From positions 1 through 44,265 of the forward strand of contig CANIVU010000073.1 in NCBI GenBank assembly GCA_947470805.1: DNA of 44,265 nucleotides, read 5' to 3'. This document shows positions 37,074-42,920 of the stretch, in pieces. The notes under the pieces are model-generated. The model saw only the letters and a list, made by a program, of their open reading frames with translations, searched no databases and had not been told where the DNA came from. The DNA is from Acidobacteriota bacterium. Lineage in GTDB: Bacteria; Acidobacteriota; Terriglobia; Bryobacterales; Bryobacteraceae. Made by a program: the position numbers and the translations under genes. Each line of letters starts with the position of its first letter. Within the stretch, counting starts at the first letter, position 1.

Positions 37074-37918
37074 TGGGCGATATGGATTTTCGACGGTTTC
37101 AGCAGATTGATGTGTTCGCCTCGGCGGCGTGCAAGGGGAATCCGCTGGCGGTGGTGGTGGATGCCGAAGGCCTCGCAGATGCGCAAATGCAAGCATTTGC
37201 GGCATGGACGAACCTGAGCGAGACCACGTTTTTGCTGCCTCCCACCTCTGGAGAGGCCGATTACCGGGTGCGGATTTTCACGACGACGACGGAGTTGCCG
37301 TTTGCCGGCCATCCGACGTTGGGGAGTTGCCACGCGTGGCTCGGGGCCGGTGGGCGGCCGCGGAGTGCCGGCGAGATTGTGCAGGAGTGCGGGGCGGGGT
37401 TGGTGCGGGTGCGGATGGGAGAGAGGCGGCTGGCGTTCGCGGCGCCGCCGTTGACGCGGAGCGGGGAATTGGAGCAGGAGTTGTTGGCGCGGGTGCTGGC
37501 GGGGTTGGGTGTTTCGCGGGATGAGGTGGCCGGGCACCAGTGGCTGGTGAATGGGCCGCGGTGGGTGGGCGTGTTGCTGCGTGACGCGGAACAGGTGCTG
37601 GCGTTGCGGCCCGATGCCGCGGCGCTTACAGGGCTGGACATCGGCGTGGTGGGGCCTTATCCGGCGGGGTCTCCGTTGGCGTTTGAGGTCCGCGGATTTC
37701 CGTTCTCCGACGGGCCGATTGAGGACCCGGTGACGGGGAGTTTGAACGCCGGGATTGCGCAATGGTTGATTGGAAATGGGACCGCGCCCTGCAACTATAT
37801 TGCGGGGCAGGGGACGGCGATGGGCCGGGCCGGGCGGATTTATGTTTCTTCGGACGCGGGCGGGATCTGGATCGGCGGGGAATGCCGAACAATTATTGAT
37901 GGCCGAGTGACCATCTGA
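37073..37918 (+). CDS. PhzF-family isomerase/epimerase-like protein
   Basis: A 281-residue member of the PhzF family, double hot-dog-like enzymes related to diaminopimelate epimerase. It has FRRFQQIDVFASAACKGNPLAVVVDAEGL, the Glu-bearing WTNLSETTFLLPP, FTTTTELPFAGHPTLGSCHAWL and IEDPVTGSLNAGIAQWL. Phenazine synthesis is not implied; most family members have unknown substrates. The start at 37073 overlaps the preceding stop; ATG 37082 is an alternative. The 3' end lies in the first copy of a tandem repeat whose later copies re-encode a similar C-terminus. Confidence 0.88.
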   Translation: MGDMDFRRFQQIDVFASAACKGNPLAVVVDAEGLADAQMQAFAAWTNLSETTFLLPPTSGEADYRVRIFTTTTELPFAGHPTLGSCHAWLGAGGRPRSAGEIVQECGAGLVRVRMGERRLAFAAPPLTRSGELEQELLARVLAGLGVSRDEVAGHQWLVNGPRWVGVLLRDAEQVLALRPDAAALTGLDIGVVGPYPAGSPLAFEVRGFPFSDGPIEDPVTGSLNAGIAQWLIGNGTAPCNYIAGQGTAMGRAGRIYVSSDAGGIWIGGECRTIIDGRVTI

Positions 37919-38281
37919 GCGCGAGCTTGCTGTCGGCCTGGGAAGGTGCGGTTTGGATAGGCGGCTCGGGCAAGTGGCTGACGATGATTGATGACCGAGT
38001 GACGATCTGAGCGCGGGCTTGCTGTCGGCCTGGGACGGTGCGGTTTGGATCGGCGGCTCGGCCAGTGGCTGACGATGATTGATGATCGAGTGACGATCTG
38101 CGCGCGAGCTTGCTGTGGGCCTGGGACGGTGCGGTTTGGATAGGCGGCTCGGGCAAGTGGCTGACGATGATTGATGGCAGAGTGACGATCTGAGCGCGGA
38201 CTTGCTGTGGCCCTGGGATAGTGCGCTGGATGATTATCGACGGTCGAGTGACGATCTGAGCGCTAGCTTGCCGTCGGCCCA
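37895..38281. repeat. Tandem array of about 92-bp units at the junction of two convergent genes
   Basis: A core GAGTGACGATCTGAGCGC occurs five times, beginning near 37905, 37997, 38088, 38180 and 38246, giving spacings of 92, 91, 92 and 66. Copy one is the end of the PhzF-like gene; copy five is the end of the convergent Haem_bd gene. On the plus strand full units encode VWIGGSGKWLTMIDDRVTI and a stop, like the PhzF end IWIGGECRTIIDGRVTI; on the minus strand they encode QADSKLALRWSL, like the Haem_bd end. The last unit has lost about 26 bases. The 315-base space between the two genes holds nothing else. Confidence 0.9.
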
Positions 38282-38686
38282 GGCTTGGAGCGTGTCCTGA
38301 TCCGCTTTCGACAGGCGGGCTTCGGGGTGGAGCATCAGGTAGCCCTGCATGGGCATTTTGCCTTTGGCGACCGATTCATAAATCTCCTCGAGCTGGTCCG
38401 GCGATTGACCGGACCAGTCGGAGAAGTTGAGCTTGGCGCGGCCGTCCTTGACGTGCCGGTCGAGCATCCAGGACATGGGGCTGATCTTTGCGTACCAGGG
38501 CCACTGCGTTTCGTGGGAGTGGCAATCGGCACAGGCGCGGCGGAGGATCCCAGCCACTTTGGGATCGACGGCGCGGTCGTTCCAGAGGCTGCGGGCGTGA
38601 TCGACGGGCGGGTTGCTGGTGTCGGGCCGGATGAACTGCGTGGCGCCAATGGCGACCAGGGCGGCGAGGAGGAGGCCGCGTTTCAC
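38234..38686 (-). CDS. Monohaem cytochrome of the Haem_bd (PF14376) type
   Basis: A 150-residue exported protein with an uncleaved or cleavable N-terminal hydrophobic segment (KRGLLLAALVAIGATQFI). It matches the haem-binding domain family: RPDTSNPPVD, RACADCHSHETQWPWYAKISPMSWMLDRHVKDGRAKLNFSDWS and MPMQGYLMLHPEARLS. CADCH binds one c-type haem; Met residues nearby could be the second ligand. It starts with GTG overlapping the CuA gene stop (GTGA) and is the last gene of the decahaem operon. The final codons fall in the tandem repeat array. Confidence 0.85.
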   Translation of the reverse strand: MKRGLLLAALVAIGATQFIRPDTSNPPVDHARSLWNDRAVDPKVAGILRRACADCHSHETQWPWYAKISPMSWMLDRHVKDGRAKLNFSDWSGQSPDQLEEIYESVAKGKMPMQGYLMLHPEARLSKADQDTLQAWADGKLALRSSLDRR

Positions 38687-39063
38687 TTGACCACCACCAT
38701 CTTGAAATTCATCGTGTCGTGGCCGTGGCCGCACTCGACGGTGCATTCGATCAGATACGTTCCGGGCGGGGGCGCGGTGAGAGTGAATTCCTGGACGCCT
38801 TCCTTCAGGCGGACCGACCATCCCTTGTCGCGCAGCTTGCGGACGACGAAGCTGTGGACGGAGCCGTCGCGGGCCTTTTCGCCGCCGAAGAGGGAGTTGA
38901 TTTTGAAGCGGACGGTTTCTCCGGCTTTCAGCGTCAGCGTGGTGTCGCCGTTGGGGAGTTTGAAGCGGTTGTCCTTATCGGCGAGCATTTCGACGGTGCG
39001 AACGCTTTCTCCGGCGAAGGCGGAGAGGGCGGAGAGAAGGAAGAGGGTGCGGGTGAGTTTCAT
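38683..39063 (-). CDS. Stand-alone periplasmic CuA-type cupredoxin
   Basis: A 126-residue exported copper protein. The signal peptide is MKLTRTLFLLSALSAFA. The fold is a single cupredoxin domain whose ligand set matches the dinuclear CuA centre of cytochrome oxidase subunit II: His70 (VHSFVV), then Cys107, Cys111, His115 and Met118 in CTVECGHGHDTM (CxxxCxxxHxxM). There is no membrane anchor of the COX2 kind and no oxidase gene nearby. It overlaps both the barrel gene (ATGA) and the Haem_bd gene (GTGA), so all are translated together. Function as an electron shuttle in this operon is inference. Confidence 0.82.
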   Translation of the reverse strand: MKLTRTLFLLSALSAFAGESVRTVEMLADKDNRFKLPNGDTTLTLKAGETVRFKINSLFGGEKARDGSVHSFVVRKLRDKGWSVRLKEGVQEFTLTAPPPGTYLIECTVECGHGHDTMNFKMVVVK

Positions 39064-41240
39064 GGTTTTGGGTCCTTGTTTGGGGATTTGGGCTCGGGCT
39101 GCGACGGAGCGTCGCCGAACGTGTAGGAGATGCTGGTGTAGCCGGTGTGAGCCCGGTAGTAGGGCTGATAGCCGAAGTAGGCGAACTGCTGGTGATAGCG
39201 GTAGAGCTGCCAGCCGAAGTTCCACTGCGTCTTGGGAGTGAGCTTGATGGAGAGCCGGGCCATGGGGCTCTGATACGTCATGGGGAAGGTGCTCCAGGCG
39301 GCGGTGTAGGCGCCGGCCAGGTTGGTGAGGCCGAGCGCTTGTTGATTGCGGCCGTCGCCGGTATCGCGGGAAATGTTGTAGCCCGTGTAGAACGTACCGC
39401 GGCGAACGGAGGCGCGCACCATGAGCGAAACCGTTTGCAGGTTGCTGATGAACTGGGATTGATAGCCGCGGGCGCTGACGGTGTTGATGGTTGTCGAGCC
39501 CTGCGGGACGAGGAGGGCGAAGATGTTGGCGAGCGAATCCATATGGGCGCGGGTGTAGTTGGCGTCGAAGGAGAGATAGCGCTTGGCCTGGAAGGACGCG
39601 GTGCCGGAGATATCGCGGGAATGGGAGGCGAAGTAGTCGAGCGATGGTCCGGCGTAGGGCGCGTTGAGGTTGTAGAGCTGGCGGTAGGTGCCGCCGAGCT
39701 TGAGGCGTTTGGCACGGTAGTCGACGCGGGCGCGGATGTTGTGGAAGTTGGCGGGGCTGGTGGGATTGAGCGGGCCGTTGTCGCGGCCGACGGTGGTATC
39801 GACATTGACCGAGAGGGCGCGCATGGGTTTCAGGCGGACGCCAAAGGTGCCGGTGTTGAGGTGGTTGCGCGTGGAGTTGAAATCGCGGCTGTTGGTGGTG
39901 CCGGTGCGGACGAGGAAGTTATCGATGAAGCGCGAGGTGTAGCGGTACTCGGAGTGCAAGCCGAGCCAGTTGTTGACGCGGTAGTTCAAGTCCAGCGCCG
40001 AGGAGACGCGGCCGGTGCCGATGTGGAAGGTGTAGAAACGGTTGATGACGGCGTTGGTATTGCTCAGGACGCGGAGCTCGTTGCCGGTGCCGTCATAACG
40101 ATTGCTGAGCACGCTGGTGGTGGCGGTGACGGTGAGCTTCGTGGTGGGGAAGACGGAGAAGGAGAAGTCCCCGGAGAGGAACGGCTGGCGGGCGGCGCCG
40201 GGCATGTAGGTGGCGGCGTTGATTTGGGCGCCGAAGCCGGAGTTGGAGCCGTTGAGGAAGCGGCCGTCGCCGGTGGGGATGTTTGTGCCGGCGGCCTGCG
40301 CGGCGCCGGTCATCCGTTCGGAGTAGACCGATTCCGTGTTGCCTTTGCTGTAGGCGAGGCTGGCGTTGGTGGCCCAGATCTTCTCGCTGCGGCTAAGCGT
40401 GGCGAACCAGCCGTTGCGGCGGGTGTGCATGGGCTGGCTGCGGCTGTAGGCGTTGGCGGCCTGCGGGTAGGTGGCTTCGAGCGTGGGATCGAAGGGGTGT
40501 TGGCGGAAGATGTCGGCGGCGTAGGGCTGGCCGGGGAAGAGGCTGGCGATGGCCGAGTCGTCCTTGTAATTTTCCCAACGGTGGGCGAGGCTGAGGCGGA
40601 AGCCGAGGAAGTCGAGTTCGGCGCCGAGGCGGTATTCGTTGAAGTCGCGATGGGTGTCGCGGGCGAGGGGGAGGCCGCTGCGGGCGAGGCCGCCGATGTA
40701 GGTTTCGTAGTTCGTGAACTCCGGGCCGGTTTCGTGGTTGCGGGTGTAGCCGAGGATGAGTTTGGCCCAGGGTTTGGCGGCGATGTGGAGGTCGTGATCC
40801 TGCATGATGCGGCGGGTGTTTTTGAAGCCGGCACCGGCGCCGTTGAGCAGCGATTGGTTGTAGTAATCGTTGCGGCGCCAGGTCATGTCGTAGCGGTAGC
40901 GATCCTTCTTGTCGACGGTGAGATTGGCGAAGCCGTAGGGATCGTTGCCGAGACCGGAGGTGGTGAGGGTGGCGGCGTCGAAGAGACGGCCGTGGCCGTC
41001 TTTGGCGCGGATATCGAAATTGGCGCCGAAGAGGCGGATGCCGTTGCCGTAGTTTTCGACGGAGCGGAAGAGGCTTTTGTCGCCACCGATGGTGGTGAAG
41101 CGGTAGCCGGTTTCGACGCTGTTGGTGACTTTATAGGCACCGATGTCGGAGGCGGTGGAGGAGGCGTCCGGCGTGGGCGTCAACACGGGTTGGGCGTGCA
41201 GAGACGGGAGGGCCAGGAGGAGGAAAAGATAGTTGCGCAT
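39060..41240 (-). CDS. MtrB/PioB-like outer-membrane beta-barrel
   Basis: A 726-residue outer-membrane protein with signal peptide MRNYLFLLLALPSLHA. The body is a run of alternating amphipathic strands (for example YRYDMTWRRNDYYNQ, FRLSLAHRWENYKDD, KLTVTATTSVLSNRYDG, WNFGWQLYRYHQQFAYFGY), as in the large porins that sheath decahaem cytochromes. The decahaem gene ends seven bases upstream, which makes an MtrB/PioB role likely. The last strand ends YTF but a Pro/Lys-rich tail of about 16 residues follows, unusual for a barrel. The Shewanella-type N-terminal CxxC is not seen. Confidence 0.8.
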   Translation of the reverse strand: MRNYLFLLLALPSLHAQPVLTPTPDASSTASDIGAYKVTNSVETGYRFTTIGGDKSLFRSVENYGNGIRLFGANFDIRAKDGHGRLFDAATLTTSGLGNDPYGFANLTVDKKDRYRYDMTWRRNDYYNQSLLNGAGAGFKNTRRIMQDHDLHIAAKPWAKLILGYTRNHETGPEFTNYETYIGGLARSGLPLARDTHRDFNEYRLGAELDFLGFRLSLAHRWENYKDDSAIASLFPGQPYAADIFRQHPFDPTLEATYPQAANAYSRSQPMHTRRNGWFATLSRSEKIWATNASLAYSKGNTESVYSERMTGAAQAAGTNIPTGDGRFLNGSNSGFGAQINAATYMPGAARQPFLSGDFSFSVFPTTKLTVTATTSVLSNRYDGTGNELRVLSNTNAVINRFYTFHIGTGRVSSALDLNYRVNNWLGLHSEYRYTSRFIDNFLVRTGTTNSRDFNSTRNHLNTGTFGVRLKPMRALSVNVDTTVGRDNGPLNPTSPANFHNIRARVDYRAKRLKLGGTYRQLYNLNAPYAGPSLDYFASHSRDISGTASFQAKRYLSFDANYTRAHMDSLANIFALLVPQGSTTINTVSARGYQSQFISNLQTVSLMVRASVRRGTFYTGYNISRDTGDGRNQQALGLTNLAGAYTAAWSTFPMTYQSPMARLSIKLTPKTQWNFGWQLYRYHQQFAYFGYQPYYRAHTGYTSISYTFGDAPSQPEPKSPNKDPKP

Positions 41241-41247
41241 GGTGGTC

Positions 41248-42213
41248 CTAGCGGAGGAAACGGTAGTGAACGTTGGAGCCGTGGATGGCAACGTGGCAGC
41301 CTGTACAGCGTTGATAGCGAGGGTCGACCATGGAGTGGTTGGCGTGGTCGGGCGTCGTGATGCCGCGGTTGTTGCGGGTGCCGAAGGGGCCGGAGCCGGT
41401 GTGGCATTCCTGGCACTGCATGGTGACTGTGGGACGGGAGAGGAGCTTTGAGGTGGTGGAGCCGTGGGGCTTGTGGCACGTGGTGCAGCCGTCGATTTCG
41501 CCGGCCTGGTGGGCGAAGACGAACGGGCCGCGTTTATCGACGTGGCACTTCATGCAGGGCTGTTCGCTCGAGTGCGATTTGTTGAGCATTTTCGAAGACT
41601 GGCCCATGCCGGCGGTGGGCGTGGAGCCGCCGTGGGGATTGTGGCAATCCGAGCAGGACATGAGGCCTTCGTTGACGCGGTGTTTGGAGGGGAGATCGAA
41701 CTGGGAGCGGACGTCAGTGTGGCACTGATAGCAGAGTTCGCGTTCGTCCTTCTTGGCGAGGAGATTGCGGGGAGATTTAGCGTTGTGGATGGAGTGGCAG
41801 GAGGTGCAGGCGACGTCGTGATTGGTGTGTTCGGAGCGGCGGATGTTGGCGCGGTTGAACTCCTTGGCGTGGCAGGAGAGGCAACTGGCGACGATTTCGG
41901 CGGGCTTCAGGATGCTGAAGGGGCGGACGACGGTATCGATGTCACCACCGGCGTCGACATGGGCCTGGCCGGCGCCGTGGCAGGATTCGCAGCCGTTTTT
42001 GGCCTGAAAATGCGGGTTTTGCGGGAAGGCGTTCCAGATGGCGTCGTGCTTATGGCAGTTGCGGCAGCCGGTGTTGCCGACAAAACCGGACTTGGCTGCG
42101 GCGGCGCGGATCTGCGCGGAGGTTTGTACAACCGGTGCTGCCGATGGGGCTTCCTGCCCCATCATCGCCGTCGAGAGGACGGCCAGTAGCAGCATGCTAC
42201 GACGAGTGCTCAT
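41248..42213 (-). CDS. Decahaem c-type cytochrome, DmsE/MtrA family
   Basis: A 321-residue exported cytochrome with signal MSTRRSMLLLAVLSTAMMGQ and exactly ten CxxCH sites, at residues 50, 75, 111, 136, 161, 187, 220, 243, 267 and 303. Spacing, repeated NPHGG/HKPHGS segments and the GNTGCRNCH opening match the DmsE/MtrA/PioA family, which carries electrons across the outer membrane inside an MtrB-type barrel. The ATG at 42213 has AAAGG seven bases upstream. It is the first gene of a four-gene coupled operon; no outer-surface MtrC-type cytochrome or inner-membrane CymA-type protein lies in the window. Confidence 0.92.
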   Translation of the reverse strand: MSTRRSMLLLAVLSTAMMGQEAPSAAPVVQTSAQIRAAAAKSGFVGNTGCRNCHKHDAIWNAFPQNPHFQAKNGCESCHGAGQAHVDAGGDIDTVVRPFSILKPAEIVASCLSCHAKEFNRANIRRSEHTNHDVACTSCHSIHNAKSPRNLLAKKDERELCYQCHTDVRSQFDLPSKHRVNEGLMSCSDCHNPHGGSTPTAGMGQSSKMLNKSHSSEQPCMKCHVDKRGPFVFAHQAGEIDGCTTCHKPHGSTTSKLLSRPTVTMQCQECHTGSGPFGTRNNRGITTPDHANHSMVDPRYQRCTGCHVAIHGSNVHYRFLR

Positions 42214-42314
42214 CACTTTACCTTTCGCGACGGCCGAATACCGCGCTTGTTGGGTAGGACAGTTGGGAGTTGTTTGCGGAACAGGAATTTTTGGATTTTG
42301 TTACGCTGGCCTTC

Positions 42315-42920
42315 GTGGCTGTGGACCTATTGGTGTGTGTGGCGACGGAGATGGAGGGGGCGCTGTTGCAGGGGCGCGTGCCGGTGCTGGTGACTGGGAT
42401 CGGGGCGGTGAATGCGGCGATTGCGTTGACGCGATATCTGGAGCGGGAGGGGGCGCAGTCGGTGATCTCGTGTGGGATCGCGGGGGCGTATCCGTTGGCT
42501 TTCGAGGAGTTGGGGTTGGGTGGGGTGGTGTGTGCGGAGAGCGAGTGTTATGGGGATTTAGGGGCGCATTCTTCTGGCGGATTTTTGGATCTGCGGGCGA
42601 TGGGGTTTCCGTTGATTGGTGGCGATGTGTTTAATGATTTGCCGATGGGGATTTTTCCGGCGGACCGGCGGGCGAAGTTTGTGACGGTGAACGGGTGTTC
42701 GGGGGATGACGCGGGGGCGTTGGCGATGGCGGCGCGAACGGGTGGGAGTGTCGAAAGTATGGAAGGCGCGGCGATTGCGCATGTGGCGCTGATGTATGGG
42801 ATTCCGGCCGGGGAGATTCGGGGGATTTCGAATCGGGCGGGGAATCGGGACCGGGGGGCGTGGCGGGTACGGGAGGCGGCGGAGGCGGCGCAGCGGGCGT
42901 TGCTGGCTTGGATGTGCTAA
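42315..42920 (+). CDS. mqnB: Futalosine hydrolase
   Basis: Nucleosidase of the futalosine route to menaquinone; splits futalosine into hypoxanthine and dehypoxanthine futalosine. The protein shows VDLLVCVATEMEG, the purine-binding VTGIGAVNAAIAL, VVCAESECYGDLGAHSSGGFLDL and VESMEGAAIAHVAL, a pattern that fits MqnB among the MTA/SAH nucleosidase relatives. The GTG at 42315 (201 residues) is chosen from homology; a TTG at 42270 gives a longer form, and no clear Shine-Dalgarno decides. It diverges from the decahaem operon and precedes a DUF418 gene. Confidence 0.85.
   Translation: MAVDLLVCVATEMEGALLQGRVPVLVTGIGAVNAAIALTRYLEREGAQSVISCGIAGAYPLAFEELGLGGVVCAESECYGDLGAHSSGGFLDLRAMGFPLIGGDVFNDLPMGIFPADRRAKFVTVNGCSGDDAGALAMAARTGGSVESMEGAAIAHVALMYGIPAGEIRGISNRAGNRDRGAWRVREAAEAAQRALLAWMC

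Follow-up and report, generated by a model that had tools for sequence, protein, structure and literature searches.

A CuA-type cupredoxin and a monohaem protein encoded beside a putative MtrAB-like electron conduit in Acidobacteriota

Gene Content of the Locus

The window analyzed here is a 44,265-nucleotide stretch of an Acidobacteriota genome (order Bryobacterales, family Bryobacteraceae; assembly GCA_947470805.1, contig CANIVU010000073.1). Its initial annotation, made from the letters alone, singled out four genes on the minus strand, encoding a decahaem cytochrome, a large barrel, a CuA cupredoxin, and a Haem_bd protein; the genes, their strand, and their spacing (7, −4, and −4 bases) were all confirmed (Table 1). 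The two overlaps, of 4 bases each, place the CuA start codon over the barrel stop and the GTG start of Haem_bd over the CuA stop. From this and the comparisons below, we consider it reasonably likely that the block encodes an MtrAB-like conduit across the outer membrane with a CuA/monohaem relay in the periplasm, the four proteins serving one electron path.

A sister genome of the same genus carries the same four-gene block, and the two are 95.4% identical in DNA sequence across positions 42914 through 38225. The ratio of nonsynonymous to synonymous change (pN/pS), based on this one genome pair, is 0.08 for the decahaem gene, 0.036 for the barrel, 0 for CuA (17 synonymous changes, no nonsynonymous ones), and 0.069 for Haem_bd. 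Because of this identity and the low pN/pS of all four genes, the block appears to be more than a chance assembly.

Table 1. Positions of the block, its flanking features, and selected features of comparison loci (L numbers)
Feature	Sequence	Position	Strand	Remarks
Decahaem gene	Window	42213-41248	minus	ATG start; 321 aa; ten CxxCH; N-terminal signal peptide judged by eye
Barrel gene	Window	41240-39060	minus	ATG start; 726 aa; outer-membrane barrel, putative remote MtrB/PioB relative
CuA-type cupredoxin gene	Window	39063-38683	minus	ATG start; 126 aa; signal peptide judged by eye
Haem_bd gene	Window	38686-38234	minus	GTG start; 150 aa; one CxxCH; hydrophobic N terminus
92-bp tandem repeat	Window	37895-38225		3.6 copies; directly 3' of the Haem_bd gene
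Futalosine hydrolase gene	Window	42270-42920	plus	Divergent from the decahaem gene
Membrane protein, ~103 aa	L036	5843-6154		Example
Membrane protein, ~103 aa	L039	10281-10595		Example
Membrane protein, ~103 aa	L050	6119-6427		Example
CuA-conduit cluster	L118	6238-15205
Decahaem-barrel cluster with further cytochromes	L150	5721-12700
Tandem MtrC/OmcA genes	L138	5874-10357		On C5 of the window's genome

Identity of the Encoded Proteins

The decahaem protein is a member of the DmsE family (TIGR03508; expectation value [E] 5e-69, 232.5 bits against a cut-off of 192.2), and its residues 46 through 314 match the solved chain 6r2q_A (E 4e-34). We take this chain, whose molecule is misnamed in the structure table, to be the MtrA of an MtrAB entry. 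That assignment agrees with PMC10654088. These matches and the ten CxxCH motifs bear out the DmsE/MtrA-type cytochrome of the initial annotation; its Haem_bd cytochrome is borne out likewise by membership in PF14376 (E 2e-40; 138.2 bits against a gathering score of 27) and a single CxxCH motif.

For the cupredoxin, the best curated matches are the oxidase subunit II models NF050117 (E 6e-7) and TIGR02866 (E 7e-7), both below cut-off, and Pfam gives sub-threshold matches only. Pertussis toxin S5 was a candidate at a similarly sub-threshold level (Pfam E 0.02; solved chains E 0.19 to 0.26) and was taken as chance. The CuA side-chain ligands H70, C107, C111, H115, and M118 (window numbering) are identical in 12/12 aligned relatives (alignment A3, which holds 12 of the 18 CuA proteins tabulated below); in the row of locus L118 the second Cys and the His are one residue farther apart. 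The structure model, of modest quality (predicted local distance difference test [pLDDT] 69.6), matches other cupredoxins first and then CuA domains and nitrous oxide (N2O) reductase, with template modeling scores below 0.6. A CuA center of two Cys, two His, and a Met in a cupredoxin fold is thus predicted from sequence and model; the oxidase subunit II-type matches, the invariant ligands, and the modest model support the soluble CuA cupredoxin that had been annotated.

The barrel is more distant from known families. At E ≤ 0.1 it has no Pfam family, and NCBIfam gives one chance-level match (E 0.1). PF11854 (MtrB_PioB) matches neither the window barrel at E ≤ 1 nor anything in the window's genome, and direct membership was rejected, the Pfam gathering score not being reached. 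Solved structures gave nothing useful, whether the search used the single sequence or profiles from alignments A1 (30 of the 42 barrels of the loci examined) and A6 (26 picked for diversity). Among the 30 A1 members, one, from L070, matches PF11854 (23.4 bits against 23). Elsewhere the model finds no match in the L071 and L122 barrels, 14.7 bits in L118, and E 2e-106 in L112, the one barrel of the NrfCD type (see below) on which it was run.

We compared profiles pairwise rather than by database search. The widened profile A6 matches alignment A7, which combines one true MtrB with six NrfCD-type barrels, with a probability of 98.9 over 605 columns. The true MtrB, the neighbor of a Photobacterium MtrA relative (the sole one from a plasmid search), itself matches 6r2q_B (E 1e-63). 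As controls, A6 gave probabilities of 0.8 against four porin-like proteins and 0.1 against three large outer-membrane-type proteins (labeled from reading), and the MtrB set gave 1.3 against the same four porin-like proteins. The narrower profile A5 (28 of the 42 barrels) reached 0.2 against the single true MtrB and 90.7 over 156 columns against alignment A4; it matched full-length, with a probability of 100, the barrels of two loci: L070, where MtrC, decahaem, and barrel occur together, and L071, a decahaem-barrel locus with a NapC/NirT-like protein and no MtrC relative within its 17 kb. Because A6 and A7 match over 605 columns while unrelated barrel sets score near zero, the barrel is, by profile comparison, a remote member of the MtrB superfamily, though outside the Pfam family, and most likely works as an MtrB-type barrel. 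The initial annotation had made its reading depend on a resemblance to MtrB/PioB, which holds for the widened profile and fails for Pfam, the solved structures, and the narrower profile against MtrB. The window barrel also has an 18-residue tail, present in the sister too, beyond the Phe that ends 24 of the 27 other aligned members. A crude strand count from the barrel alignment (42 peaks) was dropped as unreliable.

Distribution of the Block and Its Parts

CuA relatives were sought within Acidobacteriota; the scan beyond them used the barrel. The cupredoxin has a match at E 1e-3 in 35 of 257 genomes of the order, where close CuA loci (E 1.2e-27 or better) number 13 in 12 genomes, and in a phylum-wide sample 5 of 396 genomes, the window's included, match at E 1e-10. 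Our table of CuA loci comprises 18 from 15 genomes; L147, where CuA is cut by the contig end, was left out. Ten of the 18 (the window, the sister, and eight others) have a DmsE decahaem no more than 2.7 kb from CuA. In all eight of these others the decahaem reaches the DmsE cut-off and genes for an iron-sulfur (FeS) protein and NrfD lie within 7 kb. Their order is decahaem-barrel-CuA-FeS-NrfD in seven and FeS-NrfD-CuA-MtrC-decahaem-barrel in L118, with an MtrC-type as well as a DmsE decahaem. Over the whole table, FeS and NrfD genes occur within 7 kb of CuA at 10 of 18 loci (after CuA in nine, before it in L118), and none lie within that distance of the window CuA, which therefore lacks a NetBCD-type coupling nearby. 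By gene content, the link of CuA to conduits recurs and looks new; no description of a CuA protein beside MtrAB-type genes was found in the open full-text literature, judged mostly from search results and passages, with subscription papers and preprints outside that scope.

Barrel relatives are widespread, with a match in 51 of 61 genomes searched. A DmsE-type decahaem directly adjoins the barrel in 40 of 42 loci, window and sister included, and in the other two (L043 and L062) the barrel reaches the contig end. Haem_bd, with no CuA, comes after the barrel at two loci of one genome (G032; L033 and L066) and is found upstream in L053. Behind the barrel, 22 of 44 loci searched encode a conserved membrane protein of ~103 aa (examples in Table 1); window and sister have no match to it. 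L150 has a DmsE-type decahaem and a barrel, after which come genes for a monohaem protein, a protein labeled cytochrome b-like from reading, and a nine-haem cytochrome.

In G236, a genome of another genus, the block is split: the decahaem-barrel and CuA-Haem_bd pairs lie ~16 kb apart on the same contig and strand. Its decahaem and barrel are 67% and 64% identical to those of the window. The decahaem upstream region, together with the first ~57 codons, is duplicated over 531 bp (89.6%) at the start of its CuA gene. From these sequences, we read the G236 arrangement as the same block after a rearrangement, with common control retained.

The CuA tree groups the window protein with that of G236 (support 100/100) and next with L111 (96/96). 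The decahaem tree has 44 rows (34 of the 40 pair decahaems plus L112, L113, L115-L120, L121, and L122; L037, L049, L051, L057, L060, L061, and L148-L150 are omitted). There, the distribution of CuA takes three changes to explain, perhaps two gains and one loss. The window's decahaem falls inside a CuA-free group, separate from the NrfCD type (support 92/76) and from L118; long branches were flagged in this tree.

Proposed Electron Path and Alternatives

In the path that we propose, the barrel would enclose the decahaem as an insulated wire, as in MtrAB/PioAB, the homology being observed and the complex conjectural. The secreted CuA protein would bind the decahaem at its periplasmic end and swap electrons with it, filling the position that cytochromes (MtoD, PdsA) or a high-potential iron-sulfur protein (HiPIP; PioC) hold in known systems. 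Haem_bd, either a soluble protein or one tethered to the inner membrane through its hydrophobic N terminus, would connect CuA to the respiratory chain, and the inner-membrane step would be supplied from elsewhere in the genome. Because FeS and NrfD-type genes share a cluster with CuA and DmsE/barrel in the eight relatives, electrons there probably move along a chain of quinone pool, NrfCD, CuA, decahaem, and outside. NetCD are likewise FeS/NrfD-type proteins. The potential of CuA is usually high, about +0.25 V, and fits either electron uptake or delivery to Mn(IV) or acid Fe(III) outside. More broadly, the loci may represent a conduit class of Acidobacteriota with a dedicated soluble CuA carrier in place of a cytochrome, plugged into different decahaem/barrel lineages at least twice, mostly with a minimal FeS/NrfD complex as quinone link, and used for high-potential extracellular respiration or electron uptake; for this generalization we see slightly less than an even chance.

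Several observations weigh against a single electron path. The intact four-gene block occurs only in the window and its near sister, and none of the 40 other window-type decahaem/barrel regions (L032-L071, some shortened by contig ends) contains CuA. The initial annotation had expected CuA and Haem_bd beside the decahaem gene in relatives; that holds for the sister, for G236 in split form, and, as regards CuA, for the eight other DmsE/barrel conduits, and fails for these 40 pairs. The two outcomes that would have refuted that annotation, a barrel unlike MtrB/PioB and a lack of CuA and Haem_bd in all relatives, did not come about, and its interpretation is supported, with CuA and Haem_bd as putative periplasmic partners. 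Conversely, CuA occurs with no decahaem within 7 kb at 8 of 18 loci. Six of them (L111, L114, and L143-L146) have CuA after a small monohaem protein and a porin-like protein of 364 to 417 aa (the porin side is lost at the contig end in L146, and L114 adds FeS-NrfD), a set that is perhaps another outer-membrane electron module; L142 has CuA with a tetrahaem protein and FeS-NrfD, and L110 is the G236 locus, its conduit 16 kb away. The repeats around the G236 genes are complex, with several shorter ones nearby, and a promoter in the copied upstream region is presumed, no more firmly than that. Haem_bd proteins are common, with four copies in the window's genome. At the protein level, the cupredoxin sequence matches solved chains weakly, with plastocyanin on top (E 0.009), its family profile finds only CyoA (E 0.008), and a single-sequence fold of the barrel was useless (pLDDT 30). 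Some of these points suit an ordinary MtrAB-like conduit behind which CuA-Haem_bd, a separate redox or copper-handling module, was placed by chance: the distance in G236, the 40 pairs and the eight loci in which one partner is found without the other, and L146, whose neighbors resemble a resistance-nodulation-division (RND) metal-efflux system (a label from reading). We nevertheless regard such a placement as unlikely, since in G236 the decahaem upstream region and leader are duplicated at the head of the separated pair, eight loci combine CuA with other DmsE/barrel conduits, and the window genes overlap and are under selection (pN/pS).

Within the proposed path, flow could run either way. Typical CuA potentials exceed those of MtrA, which favors uptake, and the NrfCD partners in the relatives tie CuA to the quinone pool. 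In an inward path, Fe(II), Mn(II), or some other outside donor would supply electrons that pass through decahaem, CuA, and Haem_bd to an oxidase. CuA and monohaem carriers of this kind are usually of high potential, which agrees with that direction. The block also has no MtrC, as in PioAB/MtoAB, and PioC, MtoD, and rusticyanin offer precedents in passages of PMC10654088 and PMC12016527. However, the pairing of the same CuA with a quinone-linked NrfCD module in eight relatives is equally compatible with outward flow, and the genome also has an MtrC-type locus; we rate the inward path as plausible at rather less than an even chance. An outward path, in which an NrfD-type complex oxidizes menaquinol and CuA passes electrons to the decahaem for reduction of high-potential solid acceptors outside, is in our estimate an open prospect that likewise falls somewhat short of half. 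It draws on the FeS and NrfD genes near CuA at 10 of 18 loci, on the MtrC-type cytochrome of L118, and on the known example of NetBCD, a quinol dehydrogenase of the inner membrane encoded next to mtrCAB (passages of PMC8805035); against it, no FeS/NrfD genes adjoin the window block. A CuA center would also be awkwardly high in potential ahead of a low-potential decahaem. The name DmsE recalls DmsEF, which serves dimethyl sulfoxide (DMSO) reductase, and the pair might serve a surface enzyme in the same way rather than minerals; with no molybdoenzyme among the 11 scanned window neighbor proteins, we consider this very improbable.

Relation to Known Systems

The decahaem-barrel gene pair is the same as in MtrAB/MtrCAB of Shewanella and others (passages of PMC8805035), whereas the window block has no MtrC, its barrel falls below PF11854, and CuA and Haem_bd stand where MtrCAB has cytochrome carriers. 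PioABC and MtoAB(D) likewise join a decahaem and barrel, with no surface cytochrome, to a periplasmic one-electron carrier; those systems use the HiPIP PioC or the monohaem cytochrome MtoD for this purpose (passages of PMC12016527 and PMC10654088), whereas in the window CuA is the proposed carrier. NetBCD-PdsA-MtrCAB (passages of PMC8805035) has a counterpart in the eight relatives, where FeS and NrfD genes share a cluster with CuA and DmsE/barrel; the window has none of those genes locally, and CuA would replace the cytochromes PdsA/NetB. The rusticyanin chain of Acidithiobacillus (passages of PMC10654088) is another copper and haem protein relay for an outer-membrane conduit, by analogy only: the conduit there, Cyc2, is a porin-cytochrome, and the copper of rusticyanin is of the blue (type 1) kind. 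Oxidase subunit II and N2O reductase contain CuA domains with the same cupredoxin fold and five side-chain ligands, whereas the window protein stands alone and is secreted, with no oxidase or reductase attached.

The main text of PMC8805035 (Baker 2022) contains no instance of the words "copper", "cupredoxin", or "NrfD", and in PMC10654088 and PMC10879576 CuA is named only in reference titles. Passages of Baker 2022 describe Bryobacterales MtrCAB with no nearby inner-membrane quinone oxidoreductase and NetBCD in other groups. Sideroxydans, in passages of PMC12016527, makes MtoA only on magnetite, and increased amounts of three cupredoxins whose genes belong to another cluster. For MBNT15, passages of PMC9386147 describe FeS-NrfD modules that accompany multihaem cytochromes. 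An acidobacterial role in iron cycling has so far been argued from decahaem or mtrA/mtrB homologs reported in acidobacteria (passages of PMC5900883 and PMC3669403). Known MtrAB-like wires pass electrons to cytochromes or a HiPIP. If the proposal is right, a CuA carrier would set a different working potential, copper would become a requirement for extracellular electron transfer, and CuA would serve as a gene marker for an acidobacterial electron path.

Other Redox Genes and Flanking Features

No surface decahaem MtrC was found among the open reading frames of the window beside the block. On other contigs, the genome has a second DmsE-barrel pair, on C23, that lacks CuA; an MtrC-decahaem-barrel locus (C31) whose decahaem is just below the DmsE cut-off and from which the gene of a NapC/NirT-type pentahaem protein diverges; a tandem pair of MtrC/OmcA genes (C5; L138), the surrounding 18 kb containing no decahaem-barrel pair; part of another MtrC/OmcA gene (C49); and NrfD-type loci (C16 and C136). 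Because MtrC/OmcA genes lie on these other contigs, the absence of a surface cytochrome is local. The annotated lack of a surface cytochrome and an inner-membrane quinol dehydrogenase therefore stands for the surroundings of the block and gives way genome-wide, where MtrC/OmcA, the NapC/NirT-type pentahaem protein, and two NrfD-type proteins are found. Such genes could complete the path; none is tied to the block.

The 92-bp tandem repeat beyond the Haem_bd gene has a single stretch of ~84 bp as its counterpart in the sister genome and probably has no role in the working of the block. On the other side, the futalosine hydrolase gene (menaquinone synthesis; TIGR03664 above cut-off) diverges from the decahaem gene, and the alignment with the sister genome, which extends to 42914, reaches into its region.

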